Shown: positions 21,673-23,531 of the stretch, piece by piece
Numbering within the stretch: the first letter of the stretch is position 1
Layout: each line of letters starts with the position of its first letter
Source: an uncultured Pelagibacteraceae bacterium
GTDB taxonomy: Bacteria; Pseudomonadota; Alphaproteobacteria; Pelagibacterales; Pelagibacteraceae
NCBI GenBank assembly: GCA_902546765.1
Contig: CACCLG010000007.1
Location: 1-50,951, forward strand
Direction of reading: 5' to 3'
Length of the DNA stretch: 50,951 nucleotides
Notes under the pieces: generated by a model
Database searches by the model: none
Told to the model about the DNA's origin: nothing
What the model saw: the letters and a program-made list of their open reading frames with translations, nothing else
Position numbers and translations under genes: made by a program

Positions 21673-21807
21673 ATGATAGGACTGCACAAAAAGTACTTAA
21701 ATTTTTATAAAAAAAAATTTAATCTTTCATATTATAGTTTGGTTTTAATATCTTTCTTCAAGGGTTTTTTTATTGGATTAATTATTTATCATTTTTTTTT
21801 TAAATAA
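21673..21807 (+). CDS. Small single-pass membrane protein (44 aa), unrecognised
   Basis: An ATG-initiated ORF of 44 codons fits exactly between the UDG gene (4-nt gap) and rnhB (1-nt overlap, TAATG). The product has a basic N-terminal part (MIGLHKKYLNFYKKKF, about 1-16) and one strongly hydrophobic segment (about 19-42), predicting one membrane helix with the basic end in the cytoplasm. The tight fit in a genome with almost no spacers supports a real gene. Aromatic and AT-rich codons could also arise by chance in such DNA. No function can be proposed. Confidence 0.55.
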   Translation: MIGLHKKYLNFYKKKFNLSYYSLVLISFFKGFFIGLIIYHFFFK

Positions 21808-22376
21808 TGAAAAAGGTAGCTGGAGTTGATGAAGTTGGAAGAGGAAGTTTAGTTGGTCCAGTATTTGCTGCTGCAGTAATATTTAAAAAAAATATAGATA
21901 AAAGTAGGATCAAAGATTCTAAAAAACTTTCAAAAGAAAAAAGGAACATTTTAGAAAAATATATTAAAAAAAACTCTATCTGGAGCGTTGGATCTGCCTC
22001 TTTAAAAGAGATTGAAAAATTAAATATTCTAAATGCATCTTTATTGGCCATGAAAAGATCGATTAAAAAACTTAAAATAAAACCTACATCAACATTAATT
22101 GATGGAAATAAAATGCCAGAAATGAAGGGTTACAAACTAAAGTCTGTAATTAGGGGAGATCAAAAAATATCTGAAATATCGGCAGCATCTATAATTGCTA
22201 AGGTTGCAAGAGATCGGCTAATTACAAATATTTCCAAAAAATTTAGAGAATATGCTTGGGATAAAAATGCAGGATATGGAACTAAAGAACATCTAAAAGC
22301 CATTAAGAAATTTGGTATAACAAAGCATCATCGAAAAAACTTTAGGCCTATACACAACATATTGAGTCATAACTAA
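21807..22376 (+). CDS. rnhB: Ribonuclease HII (RnhB)
   Basis: Cleaves RNA in RNA-DNA hybrids and removes single ribonucleotides from DNA. 189 residues. Catalytic residues are visible: D and E in GVDEVGRGSLVGPV (about 5-18), the aspartate in LIDGNKMPEM, and the last in AASIIAKVARDRLI. The C-terminus GYGTKEHLKAIKKFGITKHHR is typical. It precedes ccrM, as in several alphaproteobacteria where rnhB and ccrM are neighbours. Its last codons contain a GANTC site. Confidence 0.97.
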   Translation: MKKVAGVDEVGRGSLVGPVFAAAVIFKKNIDKSRIKDSKKLSKEKRNILEKYIKKNSIWSVGSASLKEIEKLNILNASLLAMKRSIKKLKIKPTSTLIDGNKMPEMKGYKLKSVIRGDQKISEISAASIIAKVARDRLITNISKKFREYAWDKNAGYGTKEHLKAIKKFGITKHHRKNFRPIHNILSHN

Positions 22377-22457
22377 AACCTACAACAAGTAGAGTCTATT
22401 TTTTTCAATCTCTGGTTGACGCAGAATCTACCCTGGAGTCTAATTACTTTTTTAAAA
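22364..22457 (+). promoter_or_regulatory. ccrM upstream region with four GANTC sites and a candidate promoter
   Basis: GANTC occurs at 22364-22368, 22392-22396, 22424-22428 and 22436-22440. A candidate sigma-70-type promoter has TTGACG at 22416-22421 and TCTAAT at 22439-22444 with a 17-nt spacer; the third GANTC lies in the spacer and the fourth overlaps the -10. Transcription would then start about 7 nt before the ccrM ATG, giving an almost leaderless mRNA. This suggests methylation-sensitive autoregulation, known for Caulobacter ccrM. Confidence 0.6.
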
Positions 22458-23531
22458 ATGATAGTTAAAAATTCACATAACAAAATTATAAATGGGGACA
22501 GTCTAAAAGAATTAAAAAAAATTCCTGATGAAACATTTGATCTAATTTTTGCAGATCCGCCTTATAATTTACAATTACAAAACAGTTTAATTAGACCAGA
22601 CAGATCTAGAGTGAATGCAGTGGATGATAAATGGGATCAATTTGAGAGTTTTAAATCTTATGATGAGTTTACATACGAATGGCTAAAACAATCAAATAGA
22701 GTATTAAAAAAAGATGGGTCTATTTGGGTCATAGGCAGTTATCATAATATTTTTAGAGTAGGAAAAATAATTCAGGATCTTGGTTTCTGGATTTTAAATG
22801 ATGTAATCTGGAATAAAAATAACCCTATGCCAAACTTCCGGGGTACCAGGTTTACTAATGCTCACGAAACATTGATCTGGGCATCAAAAAGTAAAAAGTC
22901 AAAATATACTTTTAATTATCAATCAATGAAGTCATTCAACGATGATCTACAAATGCGGTCCACATGGAATTTACCAATATGTAACGGTAAAGAAAGATTA
23001 AAAGATAATGGAAAGAAAGTACATTCAACCCAAAAACCAGAAGCTTTAATACATAGGGTAGTATTAGCCTCTACAAATAAAAACGATTTTATTTTAGATC
23101 CTTTTTTAGGATCAGGTACAACTGCTGTGGTTTCAAAAAAACTAGGACGATCTTATTTTGGAATAGAAAAAGAAAAAAAATATTTTGAAGCTGCGAACAA
23201 ACGTATAAGAAATACTAAAATTATTATGGATGAATATTTGGATACACTCCAGAATAATAAATCAAAGCCGAGAGTGCCTTTTGGTTCATTAATTGAATTA
23301 GGTGTTATAAAGCCTGGTACAGAAATTTACGACAAAAAAAAGAAAGTATTTGCAAAAGTTATGGCTGATGGAAGTATTAAACATAAAGAGAACGAGGGAT
23401 CTATTCACAAAGTAGCTGCTCAGATATTAGGCGCAGAAAGCTGCAATGGTTGGACCTATTGGCATTATAAAGTAGGAAATAGTTTAAAGCCTATTGATGA
23501 ACTTAGGCAAAGTCTACGGCCAAGAGCTTAA
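22458..23531 (+). CDS. ccrM: Cell-cycle DNA adenine methyltransferase CcrM (GANTC)
   Basis: Methylates adenine in GANTC. From ATG 22458 it has 357 residues, the size of Caulobacter CcrM; a TTG 42 nt upstream only adds a non-conserved tail over the promoter. Beta-class order: DPPY at 33-36 in FADPPYNLQL, the CcrM-specific AVDDKWDQFESF and WVIGSYHNIFRVG, NPMPNFRGTRFTNAHETLIWASKS in pieces, then the SAM motif DPFLGSGTT at 214-222. The C-terminal DNA-binding domain has PRVPFGSLIELGVIKPG and NGWTYWHYK. No restriction partner is nearby, so it is an orphan methyltransferase. Its stop shares TTAA with the convergent monooxygenase. Confidence 0.97.
   Translation: MIVKNSHNKIINGDSLKELKKIPDETFDLIFADPPYNLQLQNSLIRPDRSRVNAVDDKWDQFESFKSYDEFTYEWLKQSNRVLKKDGSIWVIGSYHNIFRVGKIIQDLGFWILNDVIWNKNNPMPNFRGTRFTNAHETLIWASKSKKSKYTFNYQSMKSFNDDLQMRSTWNLPICNGKERLKDNGKKVHSTQKPEALIHRVVLASTNKNDFILDPFLGSGTTAVVSKKLGRSYFGIEKEKKYFEAANKRIRNTKIIMDEYLDTLQNNKSKPRVPFGSLIELGVIKPGTEIYDKKKKVFAKVMADGSIKHKENEGSIHKVAAQILGAESCNGWTYWHYKVGNSLKPIDELRQSLRPRA

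Follow-up and report, generated by a model that had tools for sequence, protein, structure and literature searches.

Four GANTC sites lie close together upstream of a gene for the GANTC adenine methyltransferase CcrM in the DNA of a SAR11 bacterium, whose kind are among the most abundant cells in the sea. The locus raises the question of whether the gene is controlled by the mark that its own product sets. It is part of a window of 50,951 nucleotides (contig C7 of genome G000, which comprises 983,920 bases in 37 contigs), for which a sequence-only reading had proposed an autoregulatory methylation switch resting on all four sites. By CcrM, the nearest named relatives are Pelagibacteraceae (SAR11) genomes, single-cell for the most part. 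GANTC in the ccrM promoter and control by methylation are already known from Caulobacter; a 1995 study of that promoter reportedly found methylation sites in it. The features of the locus are collected in Table 1.

Table 1. Features of the ccrM upstream region, in positions of the window
Feature	Position	Strand	Remarks
rnhB, ribonuclease HII	21807..22376	+	neighbour 5' of ccrM; ORF calls, family match
GANTC in the rnhB 3' end	22364..22368	.	probably no part of the switch
Upstream GANTC (GAGTC)	22392..22396	.	24 nt 5' of TTGAC; weak constraint
Rfam RF01784 'bablM sRNA' match	22392..22461	+	51.2 bits; interpreted as promoter DNA
TTCAATC block just 5' of the -35	22404..22410	+	half of the dyad TTCAA-N7-TTGAC; near-invariant
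-35 element TTGACG	22416..22421	+	TTGAC with 0 changes in 103 distinct rows; TTGAC is also the row anchor
Spacer GANTC (GAATC)	22424..22428	.	between -35 and -10; conserved as GANTC
-10 GANTC (GAGTC)	22436..22440	.	its TC opens the -10 hexamer; conserved
-10 element TCTAAT	22439..22444	+	17 nt after the -35; AGTCTAAT near-invariant
ccrM, GANTC adenine methyltransferase	22458..23531	+	357 aa; ORF, NCBIfam CcrM match

On recount, the positions 22364, 22392, 22424, and 22436 were all exact. The window holds 63 GANTC sites (1.24 per kb; the earlier estimate by eye was a few dozen, about one per kb), and dinucleotide shuffles gave a mean of 141, so that the window has less than half of the expected number. 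Since GANTC is depleted overall, the cluster stands out. The depletion agrees with that described for CcrM-bearing Alphaproteobacteria (PMC3973325). The wider count covered 303,048 bases of the same genome (~31%), namely the window and 13 further stretches, and yielded 335 sites or 1.11 per kb. In these 303 kb the cluster is the unique 77-nt stretch with four GANTC, which bears out the claim of a strong local excess; three sites within 77 nt occurred at two other places, each inside a called ORF. The intergenic count that the sequence-only reading had suggested, run on the same 303 kb, gave 1.47 per kb in intergenic DNA versus 1.08 in coding DNA, as delimited by simple ORF calls. One correction concerns 22364, which falls within the last rnhB codons and leaves only the other three in intergenic DNA. 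The four sites are unequal, and 22424 and 22436 sit in the core promoter.

We took ATG 22458 as the ccrM start because the open frame of many relatives has just 354–360 codons; a longer version is possible from TTG 22416 in the same frame. The gene had been called a clear CcrM. The product indeed matched the NCBIfam CcrM model NF050803 over residues 7–352, but its 576 bits did not reach the model cut-off of 830. That it methylates GANTC is presumed from its family and from the methylomes of Pelagibacter, whose GANTC sites carry methylation both in natural populations and in cultured cells, the methylated fraction showing a gradient between origin and terminus (PMC9516812). CcrM matches were found in 179 of 197 family genomes and in 111 of 134 genomes across the class, a count that includes matches to other methyltransferases. 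In the near-complete one-contig genome of L148, ccrM (G040:C1:621777-622828) is in two pieces with stops within the second, which may reflect either a frameshift or an assembly error.

The promoter candidate proposed earlier, TTGACG and TCTAAT separated by 17 nt, checked out at its coordinates (22416–22421 and 22439–22444). So did the placement of the two downstream sites, with 22424 between the -35 and the -10 elements and 22436 fused to the -10. Recognition sites for GANTC methylation are therefore found inside the core promoter of ccrM itself. The -10 hexamer lacks an A at its second position (-11), and for this reason a strict promoter scan of 22300–22520 gave nothing. The gap between the -10 and the ATG (22445–22457) is 13 nt, and all 118 genus loci keep it within 12 to 15 nt. 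This short and constant distance suggests a very short leader, and the ccrM mRNA may be almost leaderless. By promoter geometry, the methylated adenines would fall near -14 on one strand and near -12 on the opposite one, positions at which sigma regions 2 and 3 presumably make contact.

Conservation within the genus was followed in 118 loci, each with TTGAC and including the window itself (L001); most are best matches to the CcrM of the window, so that the set leans toward near relatives. For the ccrM tree (length of 9.19), loci without a long enough ccrM were left out, leaving 110, of which 103 were distinct. Counts of distinct rows drop identical ones, and rows that had lost sites were kept in all counts. 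Measured from the first base of the last TTGAC, a GANTC starts at +20 in 117 of the 118 loci and at +8 or +9 in 110. The spacer site reads GANTC in 89 of 97 distinct rows, where N is A (45), C (38), T (4), or G (2). On the tree, its positions changed 3 (G), 3 (A), 7 (N), 0 (T), and 3 (C) times, in addition to five changes of register between +8 and +9; the register was set by the better GANTC match, which slightly favours the spacer site in these counts. The register-adjusted changes beside it amounted to 13, 23, and 23 for the three bases on the 5' side and to 19, 14, 16, 17, and 6 for the five on the 3' side. GA and TC are thus fixed around a free N, the form that conservation of a methylation target takes. 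Such a pattern is what one should expect if selection acts on a CcrM site and not on a fixed string.

The -10 site behaved in another manner. Of 97 distinct genus rows, 96 retain it; it changed once in all, and N was G in 96 of 96. L041 is the sole distinct row without it, and AGTCTAAT is still present there. AGTCTAAT itself (22437–22444) changed once in total across 103 distinct rows, and AGNCT, a control palindrome overlapping it, was found in 97 of 97. With N always G and AGTCTAAT almost invariant, the -10 site is inseparable from the -10 box within the genus. The two upstream sites were looser. The 22392 site, which is GANTC in 63 of 97 distinct rows (changes G14 A6 N16 T8 C10), appears weakly constrained. 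The 22364 site was found in 60 of 103 rows with no excess of changes at N over the other four positions (G6 A10 N10 T11 C10); it seems to be under no GANTC-specific constraint and probably lies outside the switch. As to the proposed switch, a methylation-responsive ccrM promoter finds good support in the anatomy at 22424 and 22436, but a single unit made up of all four sites is not supported.

The survey was extended to 200 Pelagibacterales loci from 17 genera, the window and its 118-locus genus set among them. For these and for the class loci below, we used the TTGAC with the most GANTC at each locus, a rule that favours finding sites. By this rule, 187 of the 200 loci carry a core-promoter GANTC: it lies at +19 or +20 in 154, in the spacer in 159, and in both places in 128. 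The 13 loci without one comprise 8 of 8 from genus g9, 4 of 6 from g12, and 1 of 7 from g5. Their genomes still carry CcrM and GcrA, which implies that the core sites are dispensable in those lineages. The SAR11 sister family f2 shares the +19 register of the class, with GAATCATATT in most of its loci, and the genus of the window stands at +20. A second GANTC follows further on in 10 of 12 loci of genus g4. By eye, the core GANTC pair in most of its loci L178–L187 forms an inverted repeat, GATTCAA-N7-TTGAATC, just 5' of the start codon; these loci seem to have lost the usual -10.

For the rest of the class, we took the ccrM upstream regions of all 93 non-Pelagibacterales genomes with a match at E 1e-100 or better; 92 were used, L342 being too short (208 bases). 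A GANTC begins 19 nt (39 loci) or 20 nt (4 loci) after the first base of TTGAC in 43 of the 92. In 42 of these 43, the final C of the site opens a CANNNT; this hexamer follows TTGACN at a distance of 17 or 18 nt, where a -10 element belongs. Over 300 shuffles, loci with the GANTC at +19 or +20 numbered 1.4 on average and 6 at most, and 15 control gapped palindromes gave at most 3; both controls likewise count any TTGAC. For the broader interval from +5 to +20, GANTC was present in 62 of 92 loci, at most 10 for a control palindrome, and 30 of 92 had none by the same rule. Unlike in the genus, where N is fixed as G, N of the class -10 site is C in 32, A in 9, and T in 2 loci. The comparison with relatives, one of the refuting tests named in the sequence-only reading, thus came out in favour of the two core sites, which are conserved from the genus to part of the class.

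These counts bear on the simplest objection, namely that ordinary conservation is at work: a strong promoter and an rnhB end would contain GANTC by chance, and methylation would be irrelevant. The overlap of the -10 site with an almost invariant -10 box fits this explanation, as do the lack of GANTC-specific constraint at 22364 and the complete loss of core sites in g9. However, the spacer site overlaps no core element, and its GANTC is kept while N varies and the position slides. At the +19 site of the class, N varies as well (GACTC, GAATC, or GATTC), which is seen for no control palindrome; moreover, GANTC is otherwise depleted in the window. We regard ordinary conservation as quite improbable.

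The sequence-only reading had overlooked that the same stretch is already catalogued as an RNA family. Positions 22392–22461 matched RF01784 with a score of 51.2 bits, above the gathering score of 38. The family goes back to 2009, when candidate structured RNAs were surveyed in Pelagibacter (PMC2704228); neither GANTC nor CcrM nor the word promoter had a match in the main text of that paper. If it is a structured RNA, the transcript would fold into two hairpins and serve either as a cis-regulator of ccrM or as a small RNA. Besides the score, this is favoured by the origin of bablM, which was proposed from about 540 metagenomic representatives (PMC2704228). In the g4 loci with a second GANTC (10 of 12, an inverted repeat by eye), a helix of other geometry is possible.

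The pairing itself argued otherwise. In the model, stem 2 joins the spacer GANTC to the -10 GANTC, and the two opposing N stay unpaired. We examined covariation in the 81 distinct rows, of 89, that have both sites. N and N could pair in 37 of 81 rows, and independent columns would give 37.0; in other Alphaproteobacteria, N × N pairs were found in 12 of 36. The base 5' of the spacer site and the base 3' of the -10 site do pair in 77 of 81 rows, a point for the RNA, with 77.0 expected from independence; the further pairs likewise gave 28 versus 28.0, 70 versus 67.3, and 45 versus 45.0. The tested pairs of RF01784 are thus near-invariant or close to independence, and covariation lends them no support. 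Stem 1 (TCAAT with GTTGA) barely varies and so speaks neither for nor against an RNA, a point also made by the original authors (PMC2704228). Three predicted folds were no better than shuffles (z of +0.92, +0.35, and +0.76). In 41 of 200 loci, the segment from TTGAC to the start codon holds one GANTC and no more; these loci have retained the site although they cannot form stem 2; 18 loci with another GANTC further on were kept out of these 41. The RF01784 model matched 3 of 20 relatives searched, one of them under the gathering score, and a transcript initiated from the -10 at 22439 would start 3' of both stems. The authors of bablM placed it among motifs with less evidence for RNA structure and described transcripts for genes, not necessarily for untranslated regions (PMC2704228). 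We consider the structured RNA very improbable. The helix probably reflects no more than the ability of two palindromic GANTC sites to pair with each other, and the simplest account of the stretch is a DNA promoter whose palindromic sites can be drawn as a helix.

The promoter has one more conserved element. TTCAATC, which abuts the -35, changed once over its 7 columns in 103 distinct rows. TTCAATC-N4-GTTGAC occurs once each in 15 of 31 genomes searched, all 15 belonging to the genus of the window (19 of whose genomes were searched), and the single copy in the window genome sits at ccrM. The dyad TTCAA-N7-TTGAC (22404–22420) spans the -35 and is near-invariant in the genus. A dyad of the form TTC(A/T)A-N7-TTGA(A/C) lies nearer the start codon in most other SAR11 genera examined, and it was not found in the ccrM upstream regions of g5 and g16–g18. 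In g2, g3, g4, g7, g8, g9, g10, and g12, the similar TTCWA-N7-TTGAA is closer to the start codon. Judging by this conservation, the dyad of the genus may be an operator for a putative factor.

Wider scans of the genomes were also performed. TTCAA-N7-TTGAA was rejected as a wider operator in the genus, with 12 occurrences versus 12 for the control in the window genome and 109 versus 106 in 13 genus genomes; eight sister-family genomes showed some excess (91 versus 60). A regulon with the same grammar as the ccrM promoter showed no sign at the level of TTGAC-N15-GANTC, which occurs five times in the window genome versus six for the reversed control. The palindromic pattern GANTC-N7-GANTC occurs there at four places. 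As a second target, gcrA was dismissed, as the 661 nt upstream of it in the window genome hold zero GANTC. Separately, a recurring 25-mer with two GANTC sites, of the form TTGACTCRTAAACNGCTTGNGAGTC, was seen in several genus genomes (for example at G078:C1:862887, G172:C8:299, and G216:C4:91034).

With a conserved block next to the -35, local protection has to be weighed. RNA polymerase, GcrA, or the putative dyad factor would keep the core sites unmethylated for most of the cycle, and the mark would be set by occupancy. The near-invariant extra element TTCAATC next to the -35 is in line with this, and in a natural Pelagibacter population two thirds of the sites unmethylated in every sample were intergenic (PMC9516812). 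On the other hand, 3477 of 3482 sites were fully methylated in cultured NP1, and the available account of methylation in that paper does not name ccrM sites (PMC9516812). We find local protection improbable.

We think it likely that 22404–22444 is a DNA sigma70 promoter of ccrM with two built-in CcrM sites, from which initiation would depend on methylation, probably as negative feedback. The architecture of this promoter is well supported; the effect of methylation and its direction in SAR11 are what we infer. As the replication fork copies the locus, the spacer and -10 sites would pass from full methylation to hemimethylation, and the action of CcrM would return them to full methylation. The state of the core sites would thus cycle with fork passage and CcrM, and ccrM initiation would follow it. 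In the most likely direction, the promoter would be active after replication, when hemimethylated or unmethylated, and would be shut by full methylation. Two precedents favour this direction. In Caulobacter, ccrM transcription is described as activated only from a hemimethylated chromosome (PMC2217572). In Agrobacterium, active CcrM goes with lower activity of the gcrA promoter, which has six GANTC in 250 bp; this also holds in E. coli, which has no GcrA, so methylation can act without GcrA (PMC11514494). Counting against our reading are the 13 of 200 order loci without core GANTC, the 30 of 92 class loci with none by the rule applied, the overlap of the -10 site with the -10 box in the genus, and the missing A-11.

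What the sequence-only reading had also missed is that the genome encodes GcrA, a protein that reads methylated GANTC. It was found at G000:C10 (E 4.4e-33), matches both ends of Caulobacter GcrA, i.e., the DNA-binding and sigma-binding parts, and is present in 46 of 51 genus genomes (G000 and 45 of 50 further ones). The GcrA profile PF07750 also scored above its cut-off in a control genome, that of the archaeon Sulfolobus acidocaldarius. GcrA would be the likeliest protein partner of the ccrM promoter, since it reads methylated GANTC and binds sigma domain 2, the domain that contacts the -10 (PMC7403470).

The same protein, as a published activator at methylated promoters, would fit a positive loop equally well, and this is the main rival to negative feedback. 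Methylated core GANTC would recruit GcrA and RNA polymerase, so that prior methylation by CcrM would be required for ccrM transcription, giving a self-sustaining epigenetic ON state. The presence of GcrA in the window genome and across the genus is in keeping with such a loop, and so is its ability to aid open-complex formation at methylated promoters (PMC7403470). Four Caulobacter promoters lost 60–80% of their activity when GANTC was mutated, but a fifth GcrA-bound promoter was not crippled by the same change (PMC3667746). The -10 without A-11 is what an activator-dependent promoter might have. However, a strict positive loop could not restart after a loss of methylation, g9 retains GcrA and CcrM without core sites, and Caulobacter ccrM is described as active in the hemimethylated state (PMC2217572). 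We judge the positive loop to be rather unlikely.

The SAR11 ccrM promoter resembles known systems in part. The Caulobacter crescentus ccrM promoter also has GANTC, and models tie its transcription to hemimethylated DNA (PMC2217572, PMC8865702). It is activated by CtrA, whereas Pelagibacter is described as having no ctrA ortholog (PMC2877005), so the activator known from Caulobacter would be missing and timing would come from elsewhere. The GcrA-dependent Caulobacter promoters of mipZ, podJ, and ctrA (P1) share GANTC near or between the -35 and -10 elements, and GcrA is encoded here too. They differ in that we met no GcrA binding or dependence for SAR11 promoters in the literature surveyed; an earlier survey listed few Pelagibacter genes with a high probability of GcrA regulation (PMC7987155). 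The Agrobacterium tumefaciens gcrA promoter likewise belongs to a cell-cycle gene, is dense in GANTC, and is less active when methylated (PMC11514494), but the gene there is gcrA, whose counterpart in the window genome has the GANTC-free upstream region described above. The resemblance to bablM covers the same 70 nt (22392–22461), which are filed as a two-stem sRNA and whose conservation is explained here by a promoter and CcrM sites. A search of the literature on SAR11 cell-cycle dysregulation found nothing pertinent.

In the literature on ccrM and GANTC promoters and on bablM, with older papers only partly covered, we found neither the fixed distance across the class nor the SAR11 case described, nor RF01784 interpreted as promoter DNA. 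Taken together, and tentatively, since we hold it possible but somewhat short of probable, there may be one old alphaproteobacterial ccrM grammar, consisting of TTGAC, a spacer GANTC, and GANT(CANNNT), whose marks would be read directly by sigma70 with or without GcrA. In SAR11, which is described as lacking CtrA, the whole circuit would then be a one-gene methylation homeostat linking ccrM to the passage of the fork, and RF01784 would be a DNA switch and not an RNA family. RF01784 is a curated RNA family, and its conservation is better explained at the level of DNA; this is a warning for RNA discovery wherever genomes carry palindromic methylation sites. For the SAR11 cell, a promoter that senses the mark made by its own product would, if true, offer a very simple means of coupling a methyltransferase to replication.
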